Shown piece by piece: positions 2,163 to 62,671 of a stretch of DNA of 64,000 nt. A program made the translations under genes and the position numbers. Numbering within the stretch: the first letter of the stretch is position 1; each line of letters starts with the position of its first letter. The notes beneath the pieces were generated by a model. That model was not told where the DNA came from, ran no database searches, and saw only the letters and a program-made list of their open reading frames with translations. This stretch comes from Ulota crispa (Eukaryota; Streptophyta; Bryopsida; Orthotrichales; Orthotrichaceae), in contig OY987250.1 of NCBI GenBank assembly GCA_963920765.1, positions 6,634,001-6,698,000 on the forward strand, in the 5' to 3' direction.

Positions 2163-2568
2163 ATAAGGCGGAAGCACCCATACCCAATAATTTAAGCGAT
2201 TCTGCAACAAACTGCCAAGAGTTATGGGGCAACAAATATTTTTTCGTGTAGGAAGATAAGAAATGTTGGGATTGCAAATTTTTCATAATTTTATTTGCAA
2301 AACTCAAATTCTTGTGAACTAAGGGAGTCAAAAAGTACTTTGAAACCATTGCTGAACTCTAGACTCATGCAATTTTGATAATAGCCAAATCACTTTCTAC
2401 TCATTGTTTCTTTCTTCACGTTGGGACACGTGGCATGCCTTAAGTGGTCCCAACCTTGAAAAGGACTTAAGAACGCATTCCAAAGCACCTATCTCTGTTG
2501 AGATTGAAAATAGCCTACCCCATTGGTTGAATATGGGACGTTGTTAGTTATGGGTGCTTCCACCTTAA
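2163..2568. mobile_element. TTAA-flanked element, GGTGGAAGCACCCA-type ends (candidate)
   Basis: The left end reads ATAAGGCGGAAGCACCCATA. The right end, reverse-complemented, reads TTAAGGTGGAAGCACCCATA. The ends are therefore inverted repeats of about 20 bp bounded by TTAA (one end mutated to ATAA). A second element with the same ends lies at 11176-11638. The right TTAA (2565-2568) is also the left TTAA of the next element, as at 11635. Confidence 0.5.
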
Positions 2569-2812
2569 CCTCTAAAAAATGTTGGTGTATTGTATTCACT
2601 CTCTTATGTTATATATAGATGGGATATTTGAGTAGCACATGAATCCCATTGGAGTTGTAAATTTTAAGTCAAATCACAAACATGTTATTAGTCAACTAGG
2701 TTTATTTTGGGGAATTTTTTATTTTTGTCAGAAAGTCATTTCTTCAAGTACTAAATGATCTTCATATGAATACATGCAACACTTTTGGTAGGCAACATCC
2801 TTTAAGGGTTAA
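2565..2812. mobile_element. piggyBac-like MITE, family C copy 1
   Basis: The element is bounded by TTAA on both sides, with ends TTAACCTCTAAAAAATGTTG and, reverse-complemented, TTAACCCTTAAAGGATGTTG. Its whole length matches the reverse complement of 12511-12715, including the motifs for CAAAAGTGTTG, ACAACTCCAATG and CATGTGCTAC. It is 248 bp and non-coding. Confidence 0.75.
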
Positions 2813-2880
2813 TATGTGAACCGCCTCTAAGGCAACATCCTTTAAGGGTTAATATGTGAACCGCCTCTAAGGCAACATCC
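2791..2880. repeat. 40-bp tandem duplication of a transposon end
   Basis: A 40-bp unit starting GGCAACATCCTTTAAGGG is present 2.25 times. The unit contains the right terminus and TTAA of the family C element plus about 18 bp of flank, so the duplication arose after insertion. Confidence 0.9.
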
Positions 2881-5486
2881 TAGAGAAGCAACCAAGCAAG
2901 GGAATGTGAAAGAGAGGGTGGCGAGTGGCTTTCTCTCTATAGTTCCCCAAGGTCCAAGTCAGCCTGCAATAAATATAGCCAACGTACAGGAAACCTTGCA
3001 GTACACAAGAGCCCCATACGAGGACACGTAGCCATCATGACTCGAGCAAATTTCAAATTCAAATTCGGCTGAAGCATAACGAGGAGGCGAATAGACTTAA
3101 ATAGCATTAGCTGCATCGCACGCAAATTCAAATCCCGTTACCGTAGTTCAGCTTTCAAGTCTCTCCGGGCATCGTTTGTTGCGCCCTACACCCCTTGGAG
3201 TTTGAACTTTGAACTTTGAGCTGTGAAGTTTGAACTTCTCACGACACTCCTGACATGCAAAAAGTTGAGAGCCGTGCTCACAATTTGTGTTAACCACCCA
3301 CCTATGGTATTTACCTCGGTAATTAACGGGGAACTACTTGGAAATCAAAATTTCACTTCAAAATTACTGTTATAACAAACCTACCAATTAGGGCTTAGGT
3401 CCAAAGCAAGGTGGCTGACCCAAACTTTGGCATCAACCATAAGGAAGGGTGTTATTATTTTTTTTTGCTAGTGCCATCACATGTCATCTACATGCTTAGT
3501 TTGTTGTTACCACCACAAATTGCCTCCCACCATAATGGGCTTTTCACTGTCACTACTATTATACCAAAATAATAATAGCCTAGCAAGAAAGGTTCAAGTA
3601 AAGAACACTATTGTGAGGTTTGTGATCAAGGTTTTTTTAACTGACACAGATGGCAAAGTATGACTTCATGTCCACTTATCATAGGACAATTTTTTTGAGG
3701 GAAGACAAGTTACTAGTTGCATGACAGATTTGGCAAAAAATGTGTTAGTTAAAAAAACGCTTTGTGTGATCTCTTTGCCCTCTCCATCTTAGTATGGCCA
3801 TGTTTGCTGCTTATTGTCAAATGCTTCCCGTCATTATTGAGACACATTAGTATTGTCAACCTCCATGAGAAAAAGAATTTTGAATAAAAATGGTGAAGAG
3901 AGTAATGGACATGTGGCATGTGGTGTCACTAGCCAAACATTTGATTGGGGGTGGCAATAGCAAAATTGTGGTGGCAAGAGCCATATTCATAAAAAAACTC
4001 AACTTTAGAAAAAGATTCTCTTTTTATTCTCCCATACAATTGTGTATTCTTCTTCAAAGCCTTCTTAGGAGTATGCCTTAACATTCAATTATGAACATGT
4101 TATGTAAAGAGCCCTTTGTCATGTATTGTTAGGAACATCAATGTTTGGTAGCTCTTCTTCATTACCGTCTTATCTAGTCTCTCTTTCTTTGCTTCTAGTG
4201 ATATGGAATAGATTATGAGTGAACTACTAATTAGACCTAGGACTTAATGTTTATTACATTGTGTAAATATGGATTGCTATACATTATTCATCAAGTAGTT
4301 AGCACCAACATAAAAAAAAATGAAAGCTAGAAAGCACACACAAATACACACTCAATGATTAGATATAAAATCTAGGCACTCCAAGTAGTCAAGCAATCTC
4401 TCACTTTTCTCACAAGAGAATTCAATAGCTTAAGGCAAATTGAAAAAAGAGTTAATAACTAAAACAACATAAACAATAATAAACCTCTCTCTTTCAAACC
4501 CTCACAAAACTTGATTAGGCAAAGAATGCCAAACCAAGGAGAGAGTATCTACTATCAACCAAACCCTAATTGGTCCAAAAAGAAGTGCCAACTCAAATGA
4601 GGTGACAATGGCTCCAAACTCTCCCACTCAACTATAACATATATCATCCATATATGATGAACTACATCCAAAGTGACATAGTCTACAGTATCACATCTTG
4701 TGTGAGTTAGTGTAAAACTTATGAAACTAAATGTAGATACTTTGTTGATCAAATCCTAGATTACAATATGTGACTAGATTTAACATAATTGCTATTCCAA
4801 AAATATATATAGATAAAAAAAAGTGAAACTAACAATGTCACAATTTTTTTTTGTTGGCACACTTGGTAGTGTTTTTAGCAAATTGAGTTACTTATGAAAA
4901 TTACATTTTGGATCATTGGTACAGAGACTTTGCCACTAATTAATGTTGCCCATATAGTTGTTCCTTATATACCTACATTACAACAAGAAGATTACAACAA
5001 GACTAGGCTCTCAAATGGGTCTTGAGTAGTTGAGTCTTTCTCTTGTATTAATGATTTTAGATTCTTGTGAAGAGACTGCCACTTCATTAGCGTTTTGTTA
5101 TTTTAGATCTTGGAACGTGGAGAAATGATGGACAAAATAAAATTCAGATTTCCAAAGCATTTTAGTAGCTTATTTGCGCAAAGCAGGTACTTTGCCACGT
5201 GACGTGACACACACCCATTTGAAGGCCACATTCGTGCAATAGTATTCCTTAGCACATGATATCTCACACTTTGATGAATGTTTTAAAGGGATTTACATGA
5301 GTATTTGTACATATAACTTAGTAATATACTAGTATTGAGTGCATAGAAATGGTAGTGGATTTTCAAACTTGTTGTATTTGTGTTTTATATTGCATTCAAA
5401 CTTATTCATTTAGAAGATTACTTCTTCAAGGTTTGATCAAGGGTTTGATACTCCCTATAAGACTAGTATGTTCCGTGTCATATGGA
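2881..5486. other. AT-rich intergenic DNA, no gene seen
   Basis: No ORF with recognisable protein features. Around 3468-3500 and 3910-3935 there is an inverted copy of a short segment (GCTAGTGCCATCACATG against CATGTGGTGTCACTAGC), which hints at another degraded foldback element, but I could not define its ends. Confidence 0.5.
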
Positions 5487-5735
5487 CACTTGAGCTCTCA
5501 ATTTAGACTTGAGCTCTCAAACCAGGACTTGAGTTCTCACTTGAGCTCTCAAACCAAGACATGAGTTCTCACTTGAGCTCTCAAACCAAGACATGAGTTC
5601 TCACTTGAGCTCTCAAACCAAGACACGAGTTCTCACTTGAGCTCTCAATTTAGGACTTGATCTCATACTTGAGTTCTCAATTCAGGACTTGAGCTCATAC
5701 TTAAGTTCTCAATTCAGGACTTGAGCAATTGAGCG
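5487..5735. repeat. Minisatellite, TTGAGCTCTCAAACCAAGAC-type unit
   Basis: Six to eight imperfect units of about 32 bp, each made of two 16-bp half-units of the form ACTTGAGYTCTCA plus a variable part. The middle three units are nearly identical, so expansion was recent. Units are contiguous with no spacers, so this is not a CRISPR array. Confidence 0.85.
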
Positions 5736-5807
5736 CTTGCTTGACCAACAGACAAAGGTTTATTATCTAAAAAGCTAGATCTATTATTAGTATAGACTAG
5801 ATGTATG

Positions 5808-6444
5808 TTAACCCATAATTGCATGAGGTCTTTTTTTGAGCTTCTAGAAATTTGCTCTAAATTGAACAAAAGTCAACATTTTAATAACTTGTATCAATTT
5901 TTTGTAAATTGAAACCATACATATTCAAATTAGACATGTTAAAGATCACATAGGAAAAGAAAACACAACAATGTCACTTATGGATTGAAAGATTATAATG
6001 TTTGATCGTGAGGGTTTTAAAATTGCAAAAACAACTTGAAGTCAATCAATCCTCTTTTCACATGTTGAGTCTAAACATTGGTCACACAAAAAATGTAAGA
6101 TTATAGGACACAACATACATAACTCCAATCACTTTCTGACTTTTCAAAATCTCTTATACAAAAAATTTGAATGAATTTCTAATGTAAATTTTTTTCCAAG
6201 ATGTAGTGTATTTGTGGCTCATTTCCAAGAGCTCTCAACACAACATAAAGTCAAGAACCTTGCACAAAATCTTGAATACAAAAGTCGTAATCAATTTTTT
6301 ATAATCAGATTTTTAATGCTAATACTAGGCTTCAAAAAGAATAGCTCAAAAACCAAAATTATTAAAAATATCAACTTAGCTAGGTTTATTGAACTTAAAG
6401 GTATTGTCAACACCAAAATTTGGTGCCTTGGGCATAGGGGTTAT
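5808..6444. mobile_element. piggyBac-like MITE, family D copy 1
   Basis: Starts TTAACCCATAATTGC and ends GGTGCCTTGGGCATAGGGGTTAT (TTAA mutated to TTAT). It is similar along its length to 62019-62671 and, in reverse, to 11635-12299. Shared internal landmarks are GAAAGATTATAA, GACTTGAAGT and GAGCTCT or GATCTTC before CAAGATT. Non-coding. The 78-codon ORF at 6214-6450 is not maintained as a protein in the other copies. Confidence 0.8.
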
Positions 6445-10643: not shown

Positions 10644-10901
10644 AACTACAAGAAAAAGGGCCATTTTTGACAAAGGATTTTGATTACAAAAAAGACTAAC
10701 ACGACTAAAACTAATTGACTAGTCAATATGACCACATGTAGTCATAAATAATTTAATTAGTCATGAATAATTTAATTTATGACTACATGTAGGCATAAAT
10801 TAAACCACTTGACTGATACTAGACTAGTCAAATAGTCTCAGTAGTTGTATTGTTTTGGTAGTCAAAATCCTTAATCAAAAATGGCCCTTTTTCTTGTAGT
10901 G
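10644..10901. mobile_element. CACTA-type non-autonomous element
   Basis: The right end, reverse-complemented, reads CACTACAAGAAAAAGGGCCA, the classic terminus of plant CACTA (En/Spm) transposons. The left end is the same with the first base changed to A. A 3-bp GTT duplication flanks both sides (10641-10643 and 10902-10904), the length expected for CACTA. At 258 bp it has no coding capacity. The interior contains a further palindrome around GACTACATGTAG. Confidence 0.88.
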
Positions 10902-11175
10902 GTTAAGTTCTAATATAAAGTCAATATGCCCATTCTTAGATTAAGAAATTGGGCCTATGTTCTTGATCTGGATACATGCATTTTAACAACTCAACTTTTT
11001 TGGCTTGGTCTTGATTTTTGGTGTCAAAAATTTGTCACATATGTAACCAAGTTATTCAGTAATACTAATTGGGCCAAATCTTACGACTCAATTCAACATA
11101 TTGAGCAATCCCATGAGTGCATTCTAATTAGGGGTAAAATTGGGACAACAATTGAGCCCTAACACAAAGTGGCCC

Positions 11176-11638: not shown

Positions 11639-12299
11639 CCTCTAAATGCCCAAGGCACCACATTTTGGTGCAGACAATATTTTGAAGTTCAATAAAACCT
11701 AACCAAGTTGCTATTTTTAGTATACATTATTTTAGAATTATTCCTTTTGAAGTCTAGTTTTAGCATCAAAAACCCAATTTTGAAATATATTGATTTTGAA
11801 TTTTCTATTCAAGATTTGTGCAAGGGTGTCCATTGCAATCTTGACTTTTTTAGTGTTAAGAGCTCATGAAAATGAGCCTCAAATACACTAGATCTTGGAG
11901 AAAAATTCACATTAGAAATTCATTTTAAAAAATTGTAAAAGGGGTTTTGAAAAGTTGTAAATGGATCAGAGTTATGTATGTTAAGTCCTTTAACCTCATA
12001 TTTTTTGGTGACCAACATTTTAGAACTGACATTTGTAAAGAGGATTGAAAGACTTGAAGTCATTTTTGCAGTTTTAATACCCTCTTGATCTAACATTATA
12101 ATCTTTCAATCCATAAGTGGTATTGTTGTGTTTTCTTTTCCTATGTGATATTTAACATACCTAGTTTGAATTTGTACAATTACAATTAAAAAAAATTTGA
12201 TACAACTTATCAAAATGTTGGCTTATTGTTCAGTTTAGAGAAAATTCCTAGAAGCTCAAAAAAGAAGCTAAAAAAAGGCCTTGGGCATTTAGGGGTTAA
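11635..12299. mobile_element. piggyBac-like MITE, family D copy 2 (reverse)
   Basis: Starts TTAACCTCTAAATGCCCAAG and ends CTTGGGCATTTAGGGGTTAA, so the terminal repeats pair almost perfectly for 20 bp. The interior is the reverse complement of family D copies at 5808 and 62019. Both flanking TTAA sites are shared with neighbours: 11635-11638 with the preceding element and 12296-12299 with family B copy 1. Confidence 0.88.
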
Positions 12300-12455
12300 C
12301 CCTTAAACGTCCCAAATGCCCTCTGTGGCCATATGTTTGAGTGCAGAGTGTACAACTACGTATATTAGGGAACTCGGCTTTTAATCTGTTTTTAGTGCAG
12401 TATTATATGAAATCATATCCATAAGTCTGGATCCTGAGGGCCGTTCAGGGGTTAA
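12296..12455. mobile_element. piggyBac-like MITE, family B copy 1
   Basis: Bounded by TTAA with ends TTAACCCTTAAACGTCCC and, reverse-complemented, TTAACCCCTGAACGGCCC. It is 160 bp and non-coding. The left part resembles family B copy 2 at 19223 (AACGTC-C, GGCCCTCT, CCRTATG, TATACAAC). Confidence 0.75.
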
Positions 12456-12510: not shown

Positions 12511-12715
12511 TTAACCCCTAAAGGATGTTGCTTATCAAAAGTGTTGTATGCATTTTTATGAAAACCATTCCCCAAAAAATCCAAATTAATCAACAGCATG
12601 TTTATGACTTGGCTTGAAATCTACAACTCCAATGAATTCATGTGCTACCCACATGCCCCATATGTATACAATACGGGAGTCCGTATACAAAACAGCAACA
12701 TCCTTTAGGGGTTAA
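12511..12715. mobile_element. piggyBac-like MITE, family C copy 2
   Basis: Ends TTAACCCCTAAAGGATGTTG and CAACATCCTTTAGGGGTTAA are perfect 20-bp inverted repeats that include the flanking TTAA. At 205 bp and non-coding, it is the best-kept element of this superfamily in the window and a reverse-orientation relative of 2565-2812. Confidence 0.92.
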
Positions 12716-18766: not shown

Positions 18767-18998
18767 TTAACCCTTCAAGGACCGCTCTACCTATTACATA
18801 GTAAATAGGCTGTCGGACAACTGGCATTTGCTACCGATAAAAAGTTTTAATTTGGGATCTTGACTAGCTCACTAGAACCACATTGATCTATATTCTAACT
18901 TCTTTGTTGATCTCAAATGTATTAAAGGTGTGATGCATTCCAAATACAAGAAAATACAAAATATTGTATTGGTCGCAAAGGGTTCCTCGGTCGTTTAA
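18767..18998. mobile_element. piggyBac-like MITE, family A copy 1
   Basis: Starts TTAACCCTTCAAGGACC and ends GGTCGTTTAA. About 232 bp long. Internal landmarks shared with the other three copies are ATTTGCTACC, TTTTAATTTGGGATC, TAGCTCA-TAGAAC, TTCTTTGTTGATCTCAAATG and the GTCGCAAAGGG block near the right end. Confidence 0.82.
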
Positions 18999-19226
18999 CC
19001 TTAAATGACCATAGGGCATAGTATATACGCTGATGTATACTTGCATTTGCTACCAATAAGAAATTTTAATTTGGGATCTCAAGTAGCTCACTAGAACTGC
19101 AGTGATCTATTCTGTAATTTCTTTGTTGGTCTCAAATGTAGTAGAGGTGTGCATCCATTGCAAACACAAGAAAAATACCCCATATTGTACTAGTCGCAAA
19201 GGGCCTTTCGGTCGTTTAAGGGATAA
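18995..19226. mobile_element. piggyBac-like MITE, family A copy 2, abutting copy 1
   Basis: Head-to-tail with copy 1, sharing the TTAA at 18995-18998. Left end TTAACCTTAAATGACCATAG, right end GGTCGTTTAAGGGATAA (TTAA mutated to ATAA). 232 bp, same internal landmarks as copy 1. Confidence 0.82.
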
Positions 19227-19455
19227 CCCTTGAACGTCGCGAAGGCCCTCTCTGACCGTATGTATTTCTAGTATATACAACGGATTTGAGGGGATCTGAG
19301 ATGGAATTAGGGGTCACTATGTAAATGGAAGTGATCTCTCTTACAAAGGAGCTTTCAACGCAACCTTTGGTGGCACAAAATACACGAAAGAATGCTTGGA
19401 AATTTGTAGAATACGGTGCCATATCCCAAGAGCCCGACAGGCGTTCAAGGGTTAA
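19223..19455. mobile_element. piggyBac-like MITE, family B copy 2
   Basis: Starts ATAACCCTTGAACGTCGC (sharing the mutated TTAA with the preceding element) and ends GGCGTTCAAGGGTTAA. The last 18 bp, CAGGCGTTCAAGGGTTAA, are duplicated once more up to 19473. Non-coding. The ORFs on both strands here are reflections of the repeat. Confidence 0.7.
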
Positions 19456-20343: not shown

Positions 20344-20345
20344 TA

Positions 20346-20940: not shown

Positions 20941-21173
20941 TTAACCCCTAAAGGACGAGGCAGCCCTTTGCGACCAGTACAATAGGATGTATTTTTCTTG
21001 TATTTGGCATGTATCCACACCTTTATACATTTGAGATCAACTTTTTTGTTGGAGAATTGATCCATGCGGTCATAGTGAGCTATTTGAGATCCCAAAGTTC
21101 AACCTTTTGTTGGTAGCAAATGCCCATTATACAACAGTGTATATACAATGCCCTCTTATTGTTTAAAGGTTAA
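20941..21173. mobile_element. piggyBac-like MITE, family A copy 3 (reverse)
   Basis: Starts TTAACCCCTAAAGGACGA and ends TTGTTTAAAGGTTAA. The 233-bp interior is the reverse complement of the copies at 18767, 18995 and 36208 (CCCTTTGCGACC, CATTTGAGATCAAC, GAGATCCCAAA, GGTAGCAAATGC). Confidence 0.85.
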
Positions 21174-21541
21174 CCCTTAAATTTTGAAGCGGATAGTTTC
21201 CGTCTGCTCACTGAGAAAAAAACACTTTCATGGTTGAAAAAAAAACTTTTTTCATCCGTTTTTTTTCTTCCAAAGTGGTCATGGAGATATGCTCCATTAT
21301 GAAGTGTCAAGGATAGACTGATAGATTACCCCTACATTTTATAAATTCTAGTTTGTGAGAAGATCAAAAACTGTGGTTGAAGGTTCTATGTTGCCCTAGT
21401 TACAGTTTTCGTGAGGGTAGTTAGCACTATTAACTTTTGGAACTTTCAAAAATAATACTATAATATGTGAGGAGTATTGTAGAATCAATTGTTCATACAA
21501 AAAGGGCAGGCATGGTGACCACCCCGACGTTTAGGGGTTAA
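21170..21541. mobile_element. TTAA-flanked element abutting family A copy 3 (candidate)
   Basis: The left end TTAACCCTTAAATTT shares its TTAA with the preceding element. The right end reads CGACGTTTAGGGGTTAA. Only about the first 12 bp of the ends pair and no second copy was found, so this may be two solo ends rather than one element. Confidence 0.4.
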
Positions 21542-22976: not shown

Positions 22977-25900
22977 TCACCGAAAAGGGATGACTTCACC
23001 TTCAGAGTCAGCCAGCTTGGAGTAGGCCGCTTGAATTTGCTTTGTTATTGCACCCACCTTACCATCTCCGATTTGCCGTCCATCAATCTCCAAAACCTGA
23101 ATTAGCAATAACGTCTCAGTCCTCACTAAATTAATTGAAAATACTCTGGTTTGTCACAATTACAACAGAAGAAAAAATCGTGTTTCTAATAATTATTCAT
23201 ATTTGTCAATACATAGCTATTGTGGACACAATTTTCTTCTAGCATTAGCATTGTTAACCCGTATTAAAAGTTTTCTTTTTCATTGCGGCATAGCAACTGA
23301 GATCTCTTTAACCCCTAAAGGATCAAAGTCCCTCGGGGGACTTTCGGGATTCCGGGCATGTACTTATGGCTAAACTACTTTGTGTAATTTTTGTGGAAGA
23401 TGGGGAATTCAAAGATCTATGTGGGCATCTAATTTTTTCCTCATTTCGACATTTATTGAAGAAGTTAAAAATGAATTCATGAGAATTTTTGTTTGGCAGG
23501 CAGCCCAAAAACTTCTTTAAAAATTGCATTTTTTTAAAATAAAAATTTGAGGTAAGTTCTTTAGACTTACATATATGTGGAAAGCTTTGAATCATTCAAT
23601 TCTAATTGATGAGATGAAAGTTATGAGAAGTTTTAGTTTGCGGGTAGGTGTGGAGAATCTCAAAACAATGCCTACACGCAAACTAAAACTTCTCATAACT
23701 TTCATTTCATCAATTAGAATTGAATGATTCAAAGCTTCCCACATATACATAAGTCGAAAGAACTAACTTCAATTTTTTATTTAAAAAAAATGCAATTTTT
23801 AATGAAGTTTTTGGGCTGCCTGCCAAACTAAAATTCTCATGAATTCATTTTTAACTTCTTCAATAAATGTCGGAATGAGGAAAAAATTAGATGCCCACAC
23901 AAATCTTTGAATTCCCCATCTCCCATAAAAGTTTCAAAAAATGACACAAAGTAGTTTAGCCATAGGTACGTGCCCAAAATCCCATTTGTCCCCGAAAAGG
24001 GGGCTTGGTCCTTTAGGGGTTAAATACAAGAGCCTGAGATCAGACTTCTCAATGCGTTCTAACGTTATTACTATTATGCTTGCATTTAACCAACTCCGGA
24101 CGTTACAAAATCTAGAAATAAAAGTTCTGTCATAGAGCAAAAGGCAAAAAGAGGTGTTGAAAGTTTTTGCCAATAGTTTGAATTGTATGGGGTGGTCCTT
24201 GGATAGGAGGTCAACCCATGCTTGATTGAAGAGTTTAGTTTTGAAAAATGTACGTAACTTTGGTATATGTCTTGCGACCACCATGATCGTGTACAATCTA
24301 GATTTTCCTTCATATGGCAAAATTCGTTAAGTGTTAAACGTGGCATCATGATCCAAAGTAGGAGGTTCTATAGTAGTAAATAAATTCTTTTAGCGGTTGA
24401 AAGAGATTTAGCTGAGTTTTATGATTACATCCCACTTGATTGTTGAAAGCTAACCATATGTATTGGAAGAGGTCAGTTGCTATTGATAACTGACAAATAG
24501 ATCAGTCAATAAGAGACTAATAACAAGGTTCAGAAACACAGAGAACTGCTATGCAAGTTGAGATCCACTTACAGGTGTGAGTTCTCCCATTGTACCAGTT
24601 GTCCACACCTGAATTTGGCAATCATGCAAAAAATGCTCAGGACGTTACATGCAATGACTGGTGTTACAACTTTCTAGGGCATTCGGTTATAGAAAAGCAG
24701 TGAACAAAACTTGCACGTATATAAAAATAGCACCACGGCCTGTTGTCTATACCTCATCAGCTGTGTGAAACTCCGTAAGACTGACCCTTCGCTCCTCCAT
24801 TGGAAATCCCTCTTTCTGAACAAGATCGATTACCTGCACAAAGCCAAAGCAGGAGTGGAATTAAGAATGAACGTTTTGCAAAAAATCTCAAAAGTGTGGG
24901 GAGATTTTACAAAGATTTTAGTGGAAAACTGTCGATCAAAAGGGAAAAAGAGAAAAGGCTCCTTCGTTAAACCTTTAGCTCCTCAAAATACAATAGATAC
25001 TTCGGGTTCCAAAAAAATAAAGATACATTATAGACTTTAACCTTGAGAAAAGAAACTAACGACAATTTTCAAACTAAAAGTTATGAACTATGGCCCATAG
25101 ATTATATCAACATAATTGGATCTAGCATTGCAAATCTCGAGTAGTAATCAATAAGATTGGAAACAAATAACTCAAATTCCTCTGAAAACTGATTGTGGAA
25201 TGAAAACTAAAAGATTTGAAAAGATATTTTTTTCCTCTGCATTTACCGTGTTGAGTTCTAATTGTGGTGCTTTATAAATATTCTTCTATTGTACTTTCTT
25301 AAAAGCCAGTTTTGAAGAGTCATTTTTTGAACCAAAAATGTTAAAAACTTACTGTAGCACGTGTAATGCCTGGTAGGCAGTAGTCGGCATGAGGAGTCAA
25401 AACCCTTCCTTTCTTCACCATAAACTGCAACTCAAATTGTCACAAAAATTTGCTCAATTACTCGGTAGAAAATAAGGGTACTTATGAAAACACGTAATCC
25501 TCTGCAATTGGAGAAGATTTCTCAAATTTCAAGCTCATGAATGGTTTAGTAAAGAAAAGCGGTCATATATGAGAATTTAAGAAAGTTCTCCACTTGACAC
25601 CAGACATCAAACATAAATCTAGGAAAGTCTAAAAAAAGTTGCAGAGAACTTGGGAAAAATAAAGAACTCACAACATTAGTAGCATTTGTTTCCGAAACAA
25701 ATCCTTGACAGTCAAGCATGAGAGCGTCTCCTGCACCAGCCAAATTGCCTTCCACCTGCATCACAAAATCACACGTGAACAACAATGGCCAAAAACCTAC
25801 ATCAAGATTCAAAAATCTAAGGTAAATCATCAAATTTGGTATATGCTGTTTATTTAACACATTCTACAAAATAGGAACTTAAGATCGTTTACTGTTATCG

Positions 25901-28900: not shown

Positions 28901-30382
28901 TTATAGGTGGAGTTTGACCCAAGGAACGAAGCTCCATATAGAGTGCAGCTAAATGCACCGTTTCCAACTCAGGGATCTCTTCTTGGATCACCTTGTCAAA
29001 CGAGGGCTGCAAAACCATGCAAAACATACGCAGAGGAACATAATTTTAATCTTTAACCATTATCCTGTTAACACTCTTTCCTTCTAGCTTGAACAAATAC
29101 AACAACAAGAAAGGCAAAAAAAAGCAGAAAAAAAGGGAAAGTTTCATGGATACCCCTGAAGTTTGCAATATTTTCATAGACACCCCTGCTTGTTCAGAAA
29201 TCTCACAAATACCCTTGGACCAAAAAAAATCAGGCATTTATTTGTTGCGCTCGTACTTTCTTCATGATCAATGTTGAAGAAAGGAATACAATGAAACAAA
29301 AAAAGAAGCAACATGCGCACAAAGGAAGAAGGAAAGTAACATGCATAACAAAACAAACGCCTAAAATTTTGGGTCCAAGGGGATATGTGAAATTTCTGAA
29401 AAAGCAGGGGTATCTATGAAAATATTGCAAACTTCAGGGGTTTCCATGAAATTTTCCCAAAAAAAAACACCTGCAAAGCAAAACTTTGAAAGAATGCGGG
29501 AACTGCGTACCAGAAACTCCAAAGGGTTTCGAATGAGCAGAACATGGCGCCCACGAAGTACGTCTGCTGTCAAGCATGGCGTTCGCTGCTTTGCCATGTG
29601 CTGCCATGGAGAACAAAGTGTCAGCACCACCCCAAACAAGGCCCAAAAATCATTCAAAATCCTTAACCCCTAAATGCCTGAGGCTCCAAATTCTGGTGGT
29701 TTTTACTCTAGAACTTGGTGCCTCAGGCATCTAGGGGTTAAGAAATCAAACAAAGCTACATAAGGGCTTTCAGAAGAAAATGAAAGGAAAAAGCTACGTA
29801 CCTTAGCATAGCGATACTTCTTCTTGCAAGGCCCATGAATGATGTCGCGCACAACCTTGTTCCCGTCATTCTCCTGCAAGCAACAAAAAAAATTGAATAA
29901 TGAGACGACCAAAGTGGTACAGCAGCAAGAGATAGAAGAGAGAGTCGATCCTCTGGACGTACTAGACTTAGACTTACCATTTGCTGGAGCACCTCATCTT
30001 GCGAAGGGTGCGACAAATTAGGTTTAAGTCGCAAGTAGTGTGCGTACAGCGGTTCGTCTACAACTTCGGTGTCGTCCCGCTGCAAAAGGATCCAAGCAAT
30101 CGAGTGAAGGCGAATTCAAAAAACAAGCTGGCGAGAAAACCGAGGAGAATTGCTAAGGGATGGCTGCGATGTGAGACTTTTGGCGCAAAATCTCTCACAA
30201 GCACTTTGCTTCACCTGCGCGAAAGAGTACATGAGGCTGGTGCTGAGGGATCGCGGACCAGACCACACATTGATGACCTCGGGAATGGCGGAGCCGTCGT
30301 CGGCATAATCTGTATCGTCCATAGCCATGTCGCTGGCGTGGTACGTGACCACAACGTTCCTCTTCTTCACCGCTTCCTTCAC
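22977..30382 (-). CDS. Branched-chain-amino-acid aminotransferase-like protein with N-terminal sulfotransferase-like domain (At3g05190/At5g27410 type)
   Basis: Nineteen exons in minus order: 30382-30215, 30079-29978, 29873-29802, 29600-29511, 29006-28869, 28646-28588, 28263-28158, 27971-27792, 27344-27244, 27146-27092, 26703-26617, 26460-26409, 26175-26090, 25966-25913, 25755-25672, 25424-25353, 24833-24753, 24608-24573, 23096-22977. All are GT-AG and sum to 580 residues. Residues about 35-230 form a P-loop sulfotransferase-like domain ([18 protein letters not shown] with [24 protein letters not shown]). Residues about 300-580 are a fold-type IV PLP aminotransferase ([49 protein letters not shown] with Lys437 as the expected PLP lysine, [37 protein letters not shown]). 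The fusion is standard in plants. Its substrate is not established and I infer only a class IV aminotransferase activity. Start could instead be Met19 or Met21. Introns 3, 4/5 and 18 carry transposons. Confidence 0.93.
23308..24023. mobile_element. piggyBac-like 716-bp foldback element, family F copy 1, in intron 18
   Basis: Ends are TTAACCCCTAAAGGATC and GGTCCTTTAGGGGTTAA, with TTAA on both sides. The two halves (23308 to about 23653 and about 23680-24023) are reverse complements over nearly their whole length, with only a small loop around CTCAAAACAATGCC. Segments such as GAATTCATTTTTAACTTCTT, GGCAGCCCAAAAACTTC and TTGAATGATTCAAAGCTT occur in both arms. Transcription of the gene would produce a long hairpin RNA. 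Confidence 0.93.
29135..29458. mobile_element. Mutator-like MITE, GGGAAAATTCCATGG family, copy in intron 4 of the aminotransferase-like gene
   Basis: Ends GGGAAAGTTTCATGGATACC and (reverse-complemented) GGGAAAATTTCATGGAAACC continue into CCTGAAGTTTGCAATATTTTCATAGA on both sides. The interior is also self-complementary (CATGCGCACAAAGGAAG region). Flanks are A-rich (AGAAAAAAA and AAAAAAAAA), so a 9-bp duplication is possible but not proven. A second copy with clean flanks lies at 38569-38871. Confidence 0.82.
29663..29741. mobile_element. 79-bp piggyBac-like mini-hairpin, family G, in intron 3
   Basis: Starts TTAACCCCTAAATGCCTGAG and ends CTCAGGCATCTAGGGGTTAA, with TTAA on both sides. The arms extend inward (GGCWCCAA-TTCT against AGAACTTGGTGCC) so nearly the whole element is one stem. 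It is the shortest member of the superfamily here and lies between exons 3 and 4 of the aminotransferase-like gene. Confidence 0.9.
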
Positions 30383-31674: not shown

Positions 31675-34600
31675 CTAACGACCAGCTCCTGCGGGAGCAG
31701 CTGCAGCTCCGGGCCTGGCATAGGAAGCCCTGGTAGACGACTTGGACTCAGCAAGCATCTGGTCGTAGTTTCTTCTCTCCATGGCGATTCCCCGGGGCTC
31801 AATGATCTTATCTGCAAGGCCGTACTCAATAGCCTCCTGAGGCCGGAAGTACTTGGGCCTGCGAATATCGTTAGCGATCTCCTCCTTGGACTTGCCAGTT
31901 CCTGAAGACAGCAAATCGACGTAGTAGTCGGTGTTGGCGTCGAGCTCCTTGCCTTTGATCCACATGTCGGTGGATGAGCCACTGGACTGGTTCACCTTCG
32001 GAGAATACAACTTGGTGGATGAGCTTGGTTGCAGTGCACGGAACCCTTTCTCACCAATTGAGAGCAACATCGCTGCTTGACCGAAGGCTTGGCCACAGTT
32101 GATGGTGTACACTTTGGACTTGACGTAGCGGATGGTGTCAGCGATGGCGTATGCCTCGGTCTCGAAACCGATGCTCTCTTTCTTCTCGTTTTGCGTGCCA
32201 GAAGAGTTGATGTAGAAGTAAATCGGTTTGCTTGGATTGTCGAAGTCCAGCCACAGCAGCTCCGCGATGATGAGCTCCGTGACTGCAGGCACTATGGCCA
32301 TGCCCAGGTAGCAGATGCGTGCGTCCAGAAGCAGCGAGGGCAGATCTGGTGGAGCTGTCTTTGGCCGTCCGCCTGCACTCCCTCCTCCCCTGTACATGCT
32401 TACGCTCATGCTCAACCGTGATGGCGCTCCGTCTAACCCTGTTGCGCTCCACATTCCCGTACCTGCAAAAAAAATAAAAATACACCCATTCAAACCTCGA
32501 TCGCATAATCTTGGCACAGAAATCCTTATCCTAATCGTAAAACTAATCACTGCATAAGATCACCTCCTTGATCGCATAATCTTCTACAGGTGACAAAGAT
32601 ATCCTTATCCTAATAGTAAAACTAAGGGGAAATTACAAATAGGGGCATGAAAATGAAAAATGTGACAGATAGGGGCATGAAAATGAAAAATATTACAGAT
32701 AGGGGCATAGTTTCAAAATAATTACAAATAGGGGCACAATTTCAAAATATTTGTAAATTTTTAGAAATTTTAGTTTGTTTGGACATTGGTTGATTTAGAT
32801 ATATCACATTAAGTGTTAGCTAACTTCCAAAAAACTTAAGGTCTCTCCAAAAATTATCATCTTTTTTACTAAAATTTCTTTATTTAGGTTTGATTTGGAG
32901 AGGTTCTTAACTTTTTTGAAAGATGACTAACGTTTTAATGTGATGTATCTAAATCAACCAATGTCCAAACCAAAAGAAAATACAACAATTTACAAAACAT
33001 TGTTGAAACTGTGGCCCTATCTGTAATATTTTCCATTTTCATGCCCCTATTTGTAATTTCCCCTAAAACTAATCACTGCTTAAGGTCGTCATACTTTGAC
33101 TCCTCTATTTGCAGATGTCATGTATTATTCTAGAATGAGTTCAACAAAAACCACGAGAACACATCAGGCGATGCAAACTTTCTTGGGGTACAAAATCTTC
33201 CATGGACGACACAGTAATTCTTATTGTAATGACAACCAATCACTGCCTAAAATTACTTTAATTAACTTTGACTGTCCTATTTGCAAATGTCTTAGATTGA
33301 TTCAGATTTAAGGTTTGTCAGCCATCCGCAAGCACATAAAATTATTCTGCAGCAGCCGACCGTAGCTGCAATGAAGGCATAGTGATCATGAGGTATAGAA
33401 AGGACCAAGACTGTGGCAACCACCAAATACAAGCCCTTCATATTCCTACTCTTGAAATGTGTGAAGTCATGATTCAGGGTTTGATAACTTCTATTGCAAT
33501 TATATTAACCCCTAAGTGCCTACATGGCCAAAATTGGTCACTCCTGTATCTACAAGAAATGAAATGAACCATTTAGGAAGCTTCAAAAAGGTTGTAAAAT
33601 GTCCCAATCTAAAGAATATCCATGCCCTACATTACCGGGTGTGTTGAAATTAAATACGATTGACATATGAGCATCCAAAATGAACTTTCTATGTTAAGTT
33701 CATGCAGAAGGGGGGCTCACTCTAAGTGCCTAAATAGGAAAATCAGACTGTTTCCATATCCGTAGGAGTTGCAAAATCACTTAGAAAGCTTGACCAGTGG
33801 CTTCTCAGGTGGAATTTCTAGTGTAGGCGCTTAAAGATTAAACGAAAAGGCTAGCCACCAATCAACAGTATGAACTCTACTAAACTCACCTGCACAGAGA
33901 GACTCACAAATAGAGCAACCAGAACACTCCATGACCACTTTACCCTCGTACAAAATGTTTTAATTCAAAAGCTTTGATATTCAGCTGACTGAGACAACAA
34001 CGAAAACACTACAGATTTCAACTGCACAAAAATCCACTCACGAGCACACACTAATCTACGCCCTAATCACGAAAACATCACAGTTTAGAAACTTTGATTA
34101 CTTGAATTAAGACTATTTTTTTTTGAGTGACAGAATTCTCAACAGCCACGTACATTTCAAAATTTCGCAATGGAATTTATTGAGTCCATATAAGACAAAT
34201 GAGCTGCACGCAGTGGCGTAATGGAAAAAAACCAGTAATACATTAGATTGAGACAGATGATTGTGAAAACGTATTAACGCTTATAACAACTTAACCATAA
34301 AGGACCAAATACTCATGGTTTTAAACGGACCAAAGTAATTCACAAACCTCATACTGCCGAAAATTCAATGTAATATTTCATAAGTTCATTACACTGAATA
34401 TTGCGTTTAGGTTGCCTTACCCTGGTAAGTTACCTCATGACTCATCACTTGGCCACTTGGAGGCGCATGCAACACATTAAATATTCAGATTTCCCATGGT
34501 TAATGATTTGGAAGCCACTAGTTTGTCTTTTTGTAGCTTCATTGTTGTCTAAAATGATTTATTGCAGTAATTTTTGAACACTGTAACAGCAGTAAATATT

Positions 34601-36207: not shown

Positions 36208-36448
36208 TTAACCCTTAAAGGACCATAGGGCATAGGGCATAGTATATACGTTGCTGTATAATTGGTATTTGCTACCGAAAAGAAGTTTTAATTTGGGATG
36301 TCCAATAGCTCATTAGAACAGCTTTGATCTATTCTCCAACTTCTTTGTTGATCTCAAATGTAGTAAAAGTGCAAATCTAGTCCAAATACAAGAAAAACAC
36401 CTTGTATTCTATTGGTTGCAACGGCACGCTATGTCCTTTAGGGGTTAA
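36208..36448. mobile_element. piggyBac-like MITE, family A copy 4
   Basis: Starts TTAACCCTTAAAGGACCATA and ends CTATGTCCTTTAGGGGTTAA, with TTAA on both sides. The 241-bp interior matches the copies at 18767, 18995 and (reversed) 20941. The block ATAGGGCATAGTATATACG is shared almost exactly with copy 2. Confidence 0.92.
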
Positions 36449-50892: not shown

Positions 50893-51934
50893 GTAACCCC
50901 TAAGCGCCCAATTGACCATTTTCTAGTTGCTGCCGGTTTTTTTGGGCTGCCTGAGATGATTTCTTTTTTTTTCAAAATTTTTTTTTTGTAATAGAAAATC
51001 AATTCTTCTTTCCAACTTAACTTAAATCATGTCAATCCAAGTTAAACTTCACCAAGGAGAAATTTTCAAAAACAAACACTTCAATATTTGCTAGTGTTGT
51101 AAAATTTACTATTTTGGGAAACTATTGATGTTCTCTCCTTTCAAAAACTTGCATTTTTGAAGTTTAGGATATAATGTCTATTTTTAACCAATTATACAAA
51201 AATTTGAAATCTATGAGTAAAATTTGTAATTTTGTTGAATATTAAATGGTAAATGCTTCTAAATTCATTACACAAAAATCCAAACTTTTTTTGTGTGTTT
51301 AACACATGGATAATTACTTAACATCATGATTCTTATATATTTTCTCTTTTGAAGCAAACTTCATCAAGGTTACAAAAGTACCATTTTATAACACATCTAT
51401 GCTTGGGGAGGTCACTCTATGTATATTTTGAGCAATGTGCGGGAAATACTAGTTGCTAGTTCATTGTTAGCTGGTGGAATTAGGAAAATAACTGGTTGGA
51501 TTTTGAATTTAGAGCATGCAAAACTAGAAAGACATTTAAAAAGCCGGATTTCAACCGGTACCTTCCAAAATTTGTAGGATTTTTAACTGGCTTTCATCAA
51601 AATATGACGGATTTTAGCCGATAGGTTAAACTATTCACTGGCTGGTACTTGGGCAAGCCTAGGGTTATACCCAGGTATCAATCCCACAACCCTTTGGGTA
51701 TAATTCTTTGAAACCCTCTGGATATTATTTCTCACTCTAATACCCTGAACCCTATAACACCATATTAGGCAATTTAGGCAAAAGGGTATATTTTGAGACT
51801 TTTGAAGGTTTTAGGTGATCACCTAAAACCAAGCTCAACATTTTTTTTGTACATGTACCCTCACATGAGAGGAGGAATTTGCAAGGGAAAAAATCTTAGT
51901 GGCTCATATTGAATCTGATACCTTCAAATATGGT
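50893..51934. mobile_element. Solo left end of a piggyBac-like element and adjoining repeat
   Basis: GTAACCCCTAAGCGCCCAAT at 50893 is a superfamily terminus with the outer T changed. No partner immediately follows. The best matching right end in reverse orientation is at 54006, which would make a composite of about 3.1 kb with nested elements. The text soon after the end resembles family F (GGGCTGCCTGAGATGA, low-complexity T run). Confidence 0.4.
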
Positions 51935-52871: not shown

Positions 52872-54002
52872 GGTAACTTTTTGGGTTTAAGGTGGAGTAC
52901 AAAATGGTACCTCCCTTTTTTCCAATTTACCTAATATGGTGTTCTATGCGGAGTGCACAATGGTGCAACAATAAACCATTGCCAAACAAATGCCGTTTCT
53001 AAAACCGTAAACAGTTGCCAGTTTGTCGCTCACAATCATCACATAAATCTTCCTTGGAGGGCGTTGGTTGTGAAATCACAACATTCACTATCAACGTCTT
53101 TGCCTTTTGCCTTTGTTTGTGATTTTTTTCGTGGTTGTGTTTTGTGATCCCTTTGAAATTGTCTTTTCATTTATGCATTATGAGAATTTAATAAAATTAC
53201 TGGTACAAATTTCAATTTGAAGGAAATTAGCTGGTGGAAATTTGAAATTATAGAAAATCAACCAGACATTTTTTGAATTGAGAGGATGCAACCAATGCCC
53301 ACTGAAAAAAAAAATTGGTTCAATTTTGTAATAGGAAGAAATCAATTGGAGGGGCTCCAAAAATTTCCCAAACATTGATTTTGAGTACCCCGTGCGGCAA
53401 GGGTTTTTTTTGGGGGGCTATTTATCTCATAGGCAAGAATTAAAGGATCCTTATAATTACTTATAATTGACAAATGGCTTATTTGATGGAACTCTATCAT
53501 TACTTATACTTTCTATTTCAATGCAATTTATTCTAGGCCATATTTTTTATGAAGAAAAACCTAGAATTGAAAAACAAGTTAAAATGAGAAAAATTAGACA
53601 AAGAAGTATACAACCCTTTCTTTTTCTTTTGAAGTCTTGAAGCTACCCACTTTTATTTGAAGAAATTGGGCATTTAATTGCTAATAAAACAAAAAAACGT
53701 TTGACCCAGCTGTGCACCTAATTGTACACACATGCTATAGTAAATTTAGTTTACATGATCCAATATATGACAAACTAAATTATTTGTACAAAATACTAAT
53801 GATCCACATTTAAAGGCTACCTAAATTACTTATAAATGATTTTTGGCATTTAATAGCCTCTATCTAATTTTAAAGTTTTTTATAAATTTTACCCAAAAAG
53901 AATAAAAAACTATCTATATTTTGCCGCACATTGTTTCTAAAATACGGTAAGTTATCTCCCCGAGCATCTATGTTTTGCCTTTACCTCTTGGGCCTTTAGG
54001 GG
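52872..54002. other. AT-rich DNA between TTAA ends, no gene seen
   Basis: The short ORF at 52953-53147 has no recognisable domain. It may be the inside of a larger element ending at 54006. Confidence 0.4.
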
Positions 54003-54006
54003 TTAA
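53987..54006. mobile_element. Solo right end of a piggyBac-like element
   Basis: CTTGGGCCTTTAGGGGTTAA is a canonical right terminus with TTAA. Reverse-complemented, it matches the left end at 51935 for 19 bases (TTAACCCCTAAAGGCCCAA), so 51935-54006 may be one element with an internal insertion ending at 52871. Confidence 0.6.
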
Positions 54007-54147: not shown

Positions 54148-54395
54148 CTTTGGATGTGTATCATAGATTTGGCACTAGTATTGTTGCCCTTGATATGCAC
54201 AAACTATTGCACGCACTTGTACTTGTTATGCAAGGGACAACACCATTTGGTGAGCGTAAAGCGGTGAGCCTTGAGCAGGGATTTGAGATTCTGTGAGCAA
54301 GAACAAATCCTCAACTCAAAATCAATGAAATAACTAAAAAAACAATAAGTTTTTCAAGAGACAATAGTTTAAAATACGTAATTATTGGGCCATAT

Positions 54396-55351: not shown

Positions 55352-57111
55352 ATAACCAAAACAACAAAAAATCAACAGTTTTTTGTTGATTTTGGACACT
55401 TTTGAACACAACTTGACTAATCCAACAAAATTTCATAGAGGACATACAACATTTTATTGTATTAGATACCACAAATTCTTTTTGAAAAAATAAAAGAATG
55501 CCCCTCAATTCTTTGAAAAATGAAAATATATCCCTCAAAGATATAAACTATCAAAAATACCCTTGACTTTTTGAAAAAATACCAATTATACACCTAATAT
55601 TTTGGAAAAATATTAAAAATGCTCCTGAACTATTTTGAATTATCAAGTATATCCTTGTGTTATTTGAAAAATAATTTTTACCTTTGGTTTTGTGTAAAAT
55701 GGTAGTTAATCTTTACTCTTGGATTTTGAAGATACCATAAATACCACTTGTGTTTTTGTGCCTTTTTCTTGCAATTCTATTTTAAATTCTAACACAAAAC
55801 AATAAAAAACACTATGCAGTTGATGCAATAATTTTTGCAATGATAAATCTATATGTAAAAATTCTACAAAGAGTTTGAAGAACTTGACCATAAGATTGAG
55901 TTTGCATTTAACTTGATTCTATTTTTGTAATTTTCATTGTCATTCTAGTAATTACAAAAACTTGTAATAAAAAATAGTGAATTATGGAAACTTCCAATAT
56001 CCTCAAAAATAACCAAGAATATAGTTTAAATGATATTTTGATACAAAACTAAAGGTAATTTTTATATTTCAAATAACATAAGAGTATATTTGATATTTCA
56101 AAAAAAGAAGCATCTTTGGTATTATCTCAAACTAGGGGTATAGTTGATATTCTTACAAAAAGCAAGATTATTTTTTATATTTTCTCTTGTATTAACTAGA
56201 TCAACGAAAAAAAAAATCTTATGAAATATTTTTGGAATATTATGAAAGATTCAAAGATCTTCAAAATATTATAGAATTTTGTTTAATCTTTTGGATCCTT
56301 TGAAAATTTGATTATATGATTGCAATGTTCTTGTTTCCATGACTATTCAAAATTTGATGTTTTTTAAAGCTAGCAAACTATGGAGGCTATTATAACCTAA
56401 TAAGAGTTTTGTTTACAATAAAATTTGAACTAAAAAGAATTGGAAATGAAGCCAACCTTCACTTGTAACAATCATTTTGATATTTATGTATTCCAATCAA
56501 AATTTATAAACAAAAATCAAAGTGGTGGAAATATATATATTTTTTTAAATTTCAAAACTCTGTCTTCAATTTTTGCTCATAACTTTTGATTGAAGATCTA
56601 AAATCTGAATTTTTTTTGTCAGAGGTGAAAGTAGATTACATAAAACATCTTTTTGTAGTTTTAAAATTTTTGAAAAAAGTTGTTTAATAGGCTGACATAG
56701 CAATCAACAATAATACAAATTGTACAAGTTAGTTTTGAATACTATAGTGTGCATGAGCATGTGGGTATGGTGTGGTGGTTGGGATGGTGGCTTCCCAATC
56801 ATGATGTTGGGGTTTTGAATCCTGCCTCCACAAACTGTGCGCGACCGATTGGCCCGGCAGCCCAAGCGCCTATAACCAGCTGTTCTGGTTGCTTGTACCT
56901 CATTTAGCTAGGGATTTTTATTTAATCATTTTGATTTTTTCCAATTCTAGAAAAATTACTATTGAAAAAAATGAAAAAAATAACAAATAAGTAACAAAAA
57001 AACAACTAACTCTTGTTTTAAAGTACCCAAACTAACATGTCCAAATCAATAGAAAAAAACAACAAATTGTAGTTGATTTCTATTGATTGTCAGCAAAATT
57101 TTCTAGTAGTG
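55352..57111. mobile_element. CACTA-like element, second unit
   Basis: Immediately after the first unit ends, AACCAAAACAACAAAAAATC with TTGTTGATTTTGGACACTTTTG repeats the subterminal sequence of copy 1. The right end at 57111 reads TTTTCTAGTAGTG, the reverse complement of CACTACTAGAAAA. The two units therefore lie head to tail, or one element carries an internal end. Contains the SINE-like segment at 56765-56935. Confidence 0.5.
56765..56935 (+). mobile_element. tRNA-derived SINE-like segment
   Basis: GTGTGGTGGTTGGGATGGTG resembles a tRNA-type A box and GGGGTTTTGAATCCTGCC a B box about 50 bases downstream. A GC-rich body follows. The layout matches the head of plant SINEs. It does not fold into a functional tRNA as far as I can see, and no poly-A tail or target duplication was defined. 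Confidence 0.5.
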
Positions 57112-57458: not shown

Positions 57459-57463
57459 TTTAG

Positions 57464-57673
57464 GGCCAGTTTCCATGGGGGGCGGACCCGGAGGCCCATC
57501 TAGGCTCACCCGGGCAGAACAAAAAAAAAAATCCTTGAATGTTCAAAATGCGTAGAGTTCAGAAAGCAACCTTTGATTTTGGGTCTGGAGCCTTCAGGGA
57601 CATAGTTTGACTTTTACTAAATCGAAAGCTGGACGTCCAAGTCAAACCCCTCCAATCCTCATGGAAACTGGCC
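57464..57673. mobile_element. Short foldback element, GGCCAGTTTCCATG ends (candidate)
   Basis: The left end GGCCAGTTTCCATGGGG and the right end CCTCATGGAAACTGGCC are inverted repeats, flanked by TTTAG on both sides (57459-57463 and 57674-57678). 210 bp, with a GC-rich left half. A 5-bp duplication is unusual, and the true duplication could be longer with mutations. Confidence 0.6.
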
Positions 57674-57836
57674 TTTAGAGCCTCCTACAATACCTTTGGA
57701 GTTGAATTTCCAACTAGATGTGCTCTTGAAATTTGCAAATCTAAAATGTACACAGTGTGTACATATGTACCAGCTCATTGAATGATAAAAAAGAATTACG
57801 CTTTGCACGACAATCATTTCATTCAGAGTTTGATAC

Positions 57837-57895
57837 TCCCTCTGTTTCTAAACAAAACCCGGATTCATGCTTTTCTTCTATTTAAAAAAACCCCA
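57837..57895. mobile_element. Possible Stowaway-type end
   Basis: TA followed by CTCCCTCTGTTTCTAAAC matches the plant Stowaway terminus. No complementary right end was found before 58250, so it is a fragment or a chance match. Confidence 0.35.
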
Positions 57896-58253: not shown

Positions 58254-58560
58254 TTAACCCCTAAAGGACCACTTGTCCCTACGAGGGACAAATGGGGTTT
58301 CGGTTAGGATGTGGCTACTACAAGTTTTCACCAAATTCTATACTTTTTTCTCTGAAGGTAGGGTTTTATAAGGGCTAGGTGGGAGAATAAATTTTATTGA
58401 ATTCCGATTTACAATTTAGAAATTACAACAGTAAACATGTGAATTTTAGTTCAAGGGGCAGCTTGGGCATGCCAAAATTCTTTGACTTTTGAGAGGGACA
58501 AGCAAAGTGGGCAACTTTGCCAAAAATTGGGGCGGACGGTTGCAAAATGGGTTCTCTTAT
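58254..58560. mobile_element. Truncated piggyBac-like element, family F left end
   Basis: TTAACCCCTAAAGGACCACT begins a family F-like left part (GAGGGACAAATGGGGTTTCG recalls the right end of the 23308 element reversed). No right terminus follows. The boundary at 58560 is arbitrary. Confidence 0.55.
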
Positions 58561-60734: not shown

Positions 60735-60960
60735 GACTTGGTTGGTTGGAGAAGCAATCGTCTCTGGCCGCCCGCCGGTTCGGGATCAAATCCCATCAAA
60801 CTCGTCGAGCGGTGATGGCGGCTCACGGCTTGGCAGCTAGTGAGGCATGAAATTGGCCCAGCCAACCCGCTACCTATCCCCCTGAGCTGTGCATGTGACA
60901 AGACGGCGCAGCTCATTGGAATCTATGGCCGCTACGCTGTCACCAAACCGTGGTCCTCAC
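60735..60960 (+). mobile_element. SINE-like GC-rich segment (candidate)
   Basis: GTGGACTTGGTTGGTTGGAG could be a degraded A box and CCGGTTCGGGATCAAATCCC a B box about 40 bases later, followed by a GC-rich body. This stands out sharply from the surrounding AT-rich DNA. No tail or target duplication identified. The two overlapping ORFs across it are not convincing. Confidence 0.4.
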
Positions 60961-62018
60961 CACGACCACCTCTTTTGCCTCAACTGTTGATTTATTGAAA
61001 TCAACACAAACATAAATAAATAATAAGTATTCACATGATGGAGGAATTTCCATCAGGACACCGTGACACACGGGATGCCTCTAAATGAAATTGTAATTTT
61101 TGCAAGGGCTCTTTGCAAGCCCAATCAAAACGATAGTGCTCCAATGCTTAATACTAACAGTAAACTAAACAATTGATGCTCCTATGCCTGGTTTTGAAAT
61201 AGAAAATAAAATTGGTATGATACAAGGCTTTAGGCTAAAACTTATAGAAATAACTTCTATGTAGCTAGATTTTAAGCTCACATTGCATAATAGTTTTGAT
61301 AATACAAGGCTTGGTATTGAGAAACAAAAACATGATTGCTGTTACTAGGCATGAGGATAAAAGAAACAACATTTTCATTGACAAAAAGGTTGCTACTAAA
61401 GTCCTAAGCTCTAAATGCAACCCTTTCATGTAAAGCGTGCTATAGGTAGCTCAAGAATGGATATGAAGTGGTCCTTGAATGGACCTCTTCAAATCATAGA
61501 AAAAATGTTTATTTTATTGCAAGAGCCAATCACACTCCTAGGTTTTTTTTCATGTCTCTATAATTTGCAAAAGAATGGTTCATGAAATGTCTAGGGTCAC
61601 AAACAAGTTTCTACTAAATAAAACTTTGAAAAATCATCAACAATTCAACAATGCTTCAATAAATATGAAAAAACTGAGTGACCTTTGGCGTCCATTTATT
61701 TTGTAGACAAAAAACCTTCATGTTTTGGAAACCCATGAAAAGGCAGATCAGCCCTTAAATGATAGTTTTTGAGCATACTGCCTTAGATAAAACCAAACTA
61801 AAACAAGGATATAAGATCTAATATTAATAATAGAAATAAAATCCATGTTGTAAGGGCTGGGAGTGATACAAAAGAAAAAAGCAATGATACTACATCGGTA
61901 CTGTCTTGAACCGAGTGAATTCTATGACAAAAAGTATAGTACTAAGAATTAGAAGAGAACTCAATGCTGCAAGGGGTTGGGATCATTCTAAACATAAAAC
62001 TACCATACTAAACTTGCA

Positions 62019-62671
62019 TTAACCCCTAATTGCCCAAGGTCATTTTAAACTTCTTGGCATTTTCTAGAAAGTGAACAAGCAACCAACCTTTTCATAAATC
62101 TCATCAAGTTTGTTTATATTGCAACCATACAAATGTAAACTTGACATGTTAGAGATTACATGAAAAAAGAAAACATAAGAGTATCACTTATAGTTTGAAA
62201 GATTATAACATTTAAACATGAGAGTTGGTTAAAACTGCAAAAGCGACTTGAAGTTTTCTAATCCTTGTTTCATATGTCAAATCTAAAAGTTGGTCATCAA
62301 AAAAATATGAGGTTTAAGGTCATTACATGTTTAACTTGAGTCAATTTACAACTTCCAAAATTTACTCATGTATTTTTTTAAATGGATTGCTAAAGCAAAT
62401 TTTTGTCAAAGCTCTAGTATATTTGAGGCTCATTTTCAAGATCTTCCAGCACTAGAAAACTCAAGATTGCAGTGGACACCCTTGTACAAATTCTTGAGTA
62501 GAAAAATCATCAACATTCATTTTTTAAATCAGATTTTTGATGTTGAAAACAGACTTCAAAAAAAATTTGTGATCAAAAGAAAATACCAAAAACAGTTATT
62601 TGATAAGGTTTTATTTGTCTTCAAAGTTTTGCAAACACCCAAATTGGGTGCCTTGGACATTTAGGGGTTAA
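62019..62671. mobile_element. piggyBac-like MITE, family D copy 3
   Basis: Starts TTAACCCCTAATTGCCCAAG and ends CTTGGACATTTAGGGGTTAA, with TTAA on both sides. 653 bp, similar to 5808-6444 throughout and reverse of 11635-12299. It lies nested in the Harbinger-like element. The 98-codon ORF at 62368-62664 ends inside the terminus and is not conserved in the other copies. Confidence 0.9.

Follow-up and report, generated by a model that had tools for sequence, protein, structure and literature searches.

A 64,000-nucleotide stretch of the genome of the moss Ulota crispa (contig OY987250.1 of assembly GCA_963920765.1; hereafter the window) holds 16 delimited elements of 79-937 bp, or 15 if the element I1, whose right end is weak, is left out. 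They have common ends, a sharp boundary at TTAA, unrelated interiors and common junctions where they abut, with no detectable transposase in the window. Short and non-coding, with terminal inverted repeats and several copies with defined ends, they are non-autonomous DNA transposons, comprising miniature inverted-repeat transposable elements (MITEs) and small foldback elements. We infer, with a probability of about 0.62, that these TTAA-inserting moss elements were mobilized by a transposase acting in trans and specific for TTAA, the piggyBac superfamily being its most probable source. TTAA-specific cut-and-paste behavior is much better supported than piggyBac membership: the elements are of a jumping type sited at TTAA as piggyBac is in animals, and assignment to that family is probable, short of proven, because the moving enzyme was not found.

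On this account, elements would insert at TTAA with duplication of that tetranucleotide, and recognition would operate through the common terminal bases CCCYTAAA[G/T]G. A transposase encoded outside the elements could then move several lineages with unrelated interiors, and newer copies would at times insert at the TTAA bordering an older copy, producing arrays with one common TTAA.

A common terminus bounded by TTAA

The motif TTAACCCCTAA, allowing at most one mismatch on both strands of the window, gave 29 matches, against a mean of 1.66 and a maximum of 5 in 100 shuffles. The terminal consensus of the class is TTAA followed by CCCYTAAA[G/T]G, and the 32 ends read inward give TTAACCCCTAAAGG[A/C]C, with CC as the first element bases at 30 ends. 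TTAA was intact at 29 of the 32 ends (27/30 without I1), or at 26 of 28 distinct sites, since four sites are common to neighboring elements; this count is partly circular, as the ends were partly located via the motif itself. The ends that lack an intact TTAA are the right end of D1 and the single site common to A2 and B2. Across the 32 ends, information content is 1.66-2.0 bits at the TTAA positions and 0.05-0.29 bits at each of the ten positions outside, so that conservation ends at the outer T. The central TA is present at all 32 ends, the inner A at 31 and the outer T at 30, with a background T frequency of ~31% in the window.

A check using cores free of TTAA found the full TTAA before 14 of 15 CCCCTAAA octamers, and before 19 of 23 CCCYTAAA and 21 of 32 CCCYTAA looser cores. 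Counting imperfect inverted repeats of any kind next to each palindromic 4-mer in the window did not single out TTAA (pairs per sites: TTAA 7/440, AATT 9/764, ATAT 7/429), and the significance therefore rests on the recurrence of one motif.

A first-pass annotation of the window had listed about 15 MITE-like elements of 79 to 937 bp with termini beginning CCC(C)TA and intact TTAA at about 27 of 30 inspected ends. All 15 named elements were found, their piggyBac-like CC[C/T] starts and terminal TTAA were supported, and we added X1 (21170-21541), giving the following elements:

2565..2812, minus strand: C1, 248 bp; left end TTAACCTCTAA, right end TTAAGGGTTAA, the latter repeated inside a 40-bp tandem duplication (2790-2869)
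5808..6444, plus strand: D1, 637 bp; at the right end the tetranucleotide, read inward, is ATAA
11635..12299, minus strand: D2, 665 bp; TTAA at 12296-12299 common with B1
12296..12455, plus strand: B1, 160 bp
12511..12715, plus strand: C2, 205 bp; the two ends are identical over 14 bases inside TTAA
18767..18998, plus strand: A1, 232 bp; abuts A2
18995..19226, plus strand: A2, 232 bp; ATAA common with B2
19223..19455, plus strand: B2, 233 bp; right end in a tandem duplicate extending to 19473
20941..21173, minus strand: A3, 233 bp; TTAA at 21170-21173 common with X1
21170..21541, no strand assigned: X1, 372 bp; absent from the first-pass list
23308..24023, no strand assigned: F1, 716 bp; near-complete hairpin with 270-nt arms, 93% complementary
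29663..29741, no strand assigned: G1, 79 bp; full-length inverted repeat (78%) with D-like ends
33505..33841, no strand assigned: I1, 337 bp; proposed right end weak, finishing in TTAA (16/20 bases matched; score 24, within the shuffled range, maximum 37)
36208..36448, plus strand: A4, 241 bp; GTTTGT outside both TTAA
51935..52871, no strand assigned: F2, 937 bp; 148 bp common with F1
62019..62671, plus strand: D3, 653 bp; within one unit of a tandem repeat, the remaining units being free of D3

Three further ends stood apart from these elements:

53988..54006, minus strand: extra right end, TTAACCCCTAAAGGCCCAA read inward; possible partners at 51935 or 50893
50893..50911, plus strand: left end, GTAACCCCTAAGCGCCCAA; pairs best with the right end at 54006
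58254..58303, plus strand: solo F-type left end, 79% identical to F1 across 53 alignment columns; no partner among nearby sequence

Between the right end at 54006 and the F2 left end at 51935, 19/19 bases agree, and the pair 50893-54006 matches in 16/18 (score 28, shuffled maximum 26). A 2-kb parent element spanning 51935-54006 was considered; its six frames have no recognizable content. Inverted-repeat arms (82%) at 51753-51786 and 52913-52946 bracket F2, as if F2 were nested in another element. Weaker single matches to the motif, unpaired, lie at 11128-11138 and 26955-26965.

Interiors, junctions and age

By interior, the true families are A (four copies), C (two) and D (three). Among the 10 pairs of A, C and D copies, interiors were 72-81% identical, ends matched in 16-21 of 22 positions and flanks in 3-9 of 18-20; homology extends to TTAA and stops there, with the flanks near chance. 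B1 and B2 are similar over ~40 bp at one end (59% inside, ends 19/22, flanks 10/20), and G1 resembles the ends of D, as if two D-like ends had been fused. Both F1 and G1 form almost complete hairpins. X1 has no second interior copy in the window; none was seen for I1, which was not among the queries of the interior comparison. The suggestion in the first-pass annotation that at least seven unrelated interiors use one terminus stands as to number, with ~8 unrelated interiors when B1 and B2 are scored separately and G is merged with D, with corrections to its B, F and G groups.

Ends were better conserved than interiors in nine of the 10 A, C and D pairs, A1-A3 being the exception. This comparison is biased, as elements were discovered by their ends; it would be consistent with interiors that had already diverged when the elements last moved. 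The window bears no sign of recent activity, since internal sites of A, C and D differ by ~20-28%, and the elements are best read as old. The 72-81% identity of these interiors lends no support to the earlier proposal of a transposase still or recently active.

At three clean junctions, abutting elements have a single tetranucleotide in common (12296-12299; 19223-19226, here ATAA; and 21170-21173). The fourth junction, between A1 and A2 (18995-18998), is rearranged, ~8 bp of palindrome apparently having been lost. Four TTAATTAA are present in the window, none at an element end. Common junctions are the outcome expected when an element inserts into the TTAA at the end of an older one, and they suggest that TTAA is likely duplicated upon insertion. 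When 15 insertions were simulated into 410 free TTAA, an assumed number, the probability of abutment was 0.010 for at least three events and 0.0009 for at least four (0.021 and 0.002, respectively, with four further end sites allowed). With the site count assumed and the test post hoc, this is suggestive of abutment above random TTAA choice.

Transposase search and competing explanations

The longest open piece in the 14 element stretches examined was 109 aa. Two longer open reading frames (ORFs) of 156 and 130 aa extend across the boundaries of B2 and F1, neither with a convincing Pfam match. Pfam analysis of 10 ORFs hand-picked from a set of 39, plus nine mostly genic ORFs, gave no transposon domains, and scanning the window with Rfam and for tRNAs returned nothing. 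A weak tblastn match (52872-53051; E 0.21 for the whole window and 0.011 for that stretch alone) crosses a stop and was dismissed as chance. In 21 viral-contig loci, no homology to the elements was found beyond 19-21 bp. Four of these loci (L012, L016, L018 and L019) have more than one motif-like end; L012 and L016 carry several TTAACCCCTAAA-like motifs with matching spacings of 559 and 1635 bp, and neither showed homology to the elements of the window.

Several results weigh against a piggyBac-type origin with duplication of TTAA. A profile of piggyBac-like proteins, comprising the best 120 of 3399 significant matches to an artificial consensus (those with a species name from animals, many bearing no name, so that plant members may exist among the 3399), found no matches among the window's 2113 ORFs of at least 20 aa, and tblastn of such proteins against the window gave chance-level matches only (best E 0.021). 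The piggyBac terminal hallmark is quoted as CC[C/T]T (PMC2872659), whereas the fourth base here is C at 19, T at 11 and A at 2 of the 32 ends. A4 has an extra 6-bp direct repeat, GTTTGT, outside TTAA (36202-36454), found in one of 16 elements; direct repeats outside TTAA are 3 bp (GGT) for F2 and 0-2 bp for the rest. Finally, in mild conflict with duplication, three repeat units without D3 fit the D3 flanks better when joined without TTAA (alignment scores 56, 48.5 and 24) than with one TTAA (53.5, 44 and 19.5), in a test of four joins at one locus with paralogous units. Because the join without TTAA scores higher, a 4-bp indel has to be assumed at D3 if TTAA is duplicated. Given that the repeat is ~25% diverged with other indels near, and that the third unit aligns poorly in every join, we still rate duplication as likely.

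The D3 locus is also the argument for the idea that TTAA belongs to the element and that insertion occurs without duplication, since removal of the whole TTAA...TTAA unit was the best of the four joins for all three uninserted units. That model predicts TTAATTAA at abutments, where the three clean junctions instead hold one common tetranucleotide, and D3 is a single diverged locus; we consider the model highly improbable. Hardly better placed are Tc1/mariner-type elements that duplicate TA and strongly prefer sites within TTAA. The invariant central TA would suit them, as would a second inverted-repeat class in the window, class Y (2163-2568 and 11176-11638), which finishes at TA with variable outer bases. 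Tc1/mariner (Stowaway) elements would leave the outer bases free, in contrast to the outer T (30/32) and inner A (31/32) found here against ~31% T, and to the full TTAA before 14 of 15 octamers. PIF/Harbinger (Tourist) elements, recognized by a 3-bp TTA/TAA direct duplication (PMC10004981), are disfavored, as the palindromic TTAA is found at both ends; TTA outside ACCCC would require a right end GGGGTTTA, and the observed right ends are GGGGTTAA or close.

The same kind of element could instead be moved by another TTAA-specific transposase, be it Kolobok, Sola3, which targets TTAA, or an undescribed plant lineage, a reading that we regard as possible though doubtful. TTAA by itself is not diagnostic of piggyBac, as Kolobok also makes TTAA duplications, and the absence of a detected piggyBac protein in the window, by profile or tblastn, and the plant PiggyBac mentions in the literature, which are listings in the text available, leave room for such an enzyme. 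Kolobok, known in a chlorophyte and red algae, has 5'-RR..YY-3' ends (PMC9587614), at odds with the CC starts. Less probable again is a TTAA-specific transposase lineage of the mosses' own, neither piggyBac nor Kolobok, that would prefer the ends of its earlier insertions; recognizing about a dozen terminal bases, it would therefore mobilize many unrelated DNA segments. We favor piggyBac because TTAA is present at both ends as in that superfamily (29/32) and the starts are CC[C/T]; as to the transposase, the first-pass proposal stays a probable one, the window having yielded no piggyBac-like DDD transposase (PF13843). ATAA, found here at the right end of D1 and the left end of B2, has been reported as a piggyBac target (PMC8634313).

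Genomic surroundings and known systems

The plant host assumed in the first-pass annotation agrees with the genes of the window, whose closest named relatives point to a moss and which also include an At4g14310-type propeller and an amino-acid transporter:

31678-32460, minus strand: ClpR1 fragment; identity 97% (an assembly protein), 95% (Ceratodon purpureus) and 82% (two liverworts, Marchantia paleacea and Riccia fluitans)
37082-38326, minus strand: GIL1/IRKI-like predicted protein, 80% identical to an assembly protein and 73% to Ceratodon purpureus

Other repeats were also noted. The two class Y repeats have ends TAAGGTRGAAGCACC or close and unrelated interiors, and their right ends directly adjoin the TTAACC elements C1 and D2; an element at 19694-20466 has ends similar to class Y. 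Inverted repeats at 10645-10900 and 54393-55354, with ends like ACTACAAGAAAAAGGGCC and CACTAGTAGAAAA, presumably resemble CACTA-type plant elements, and we take an inverted repeat at 57460-57677 (GGGCCAGTTTCCAT, flanked by TTA) to be PIF/Harbinger-like. A foldback element is present in two copies ~9.4 kb apart (29130-29458 and 38564-38868; arms 91% and 99% complementary), and a TAA-flanked 444-bp inverted repeat at 32623-33066 contains repeated CAAATAGGGGCATG-like units. Tandem repeats lie at 5475-5762 (period ~32 bp), 13117-13710 (168-192 bp) and 54513-54924 (~10 bp).

As a genome-engineering tool, piggyBac is a main transposon, and its natural range in land plants rests on listings rather than described elements, as far as the available portions of the sources go. 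PiggyBac is given as one of seven angiosperm MITE superfamilies in a 2023 review (PMC10004981) and among plant DNA transposon superfamilies (PMC10794571), plants are named as hosts of piggyBac-like elements (PMC8086355, PMC10813416), and a fern repeat table has 1230 PiggyBac copies (PMC6890710). In the text available, these mentions are listings and none describes an element; they nevertheless make the earlier remark that piggyBac is hardly described in land plants too strong. Among the open-licence PMC titles listed, none describes piggyBac-type elements endogenous to mosses; of the papers containing both piggyBac and mosses, one (PMC10619864) uses the word 'piggybacking' and another concerns Physcomitrella mutagenesis (PMC5505980). 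The dense TTAA elements described here make the question of plant piggyBac testable: long copies with TTAACCCYTAAA...TTTARGGGTTAA ends in any moss genome would reveal whether it exists and, if so, it could supply a native moss transposon tool.

Kolobok MITEs (e.g. Xenopus T2, PMC6004289) have the same TTAA target as the moss elements but differ in termini, RR..YY against CC in 30/32 moss ends. The angiosperm MITEs classed as PiggyBac (PMC10004981), known here by listing alone, are alike in having plant hosts and a classification by target site duplication and terminal inverted repeat (TIR), and differ in that the hosts are angiosperms rather than a moss. In the literature examined, the nearest described structures are the piggyBac-type MITEs of coral (CMITE; PMC2872659, as far as the available text goes), which likewise are short and non-coding, with CCC ends and reported tandem arrays; the coral elements have TTAA duplications, rated likely for the moss elements too, and starts beside TTAA such as CCCTTTAAGCCCTA or CCCCTCAGTGTCCG. 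In CMITEs the interiors are kept and the ends vary, whereas the moss elements have common ends and differing interiors. The coral arrays were ascribed by the authors to replication slippage, while in the moss window unlike elements abut. In coral, one CMITE family has the same TIR as a known autonomous piggyBac, in contrast to the moss, where no counterpart is known.

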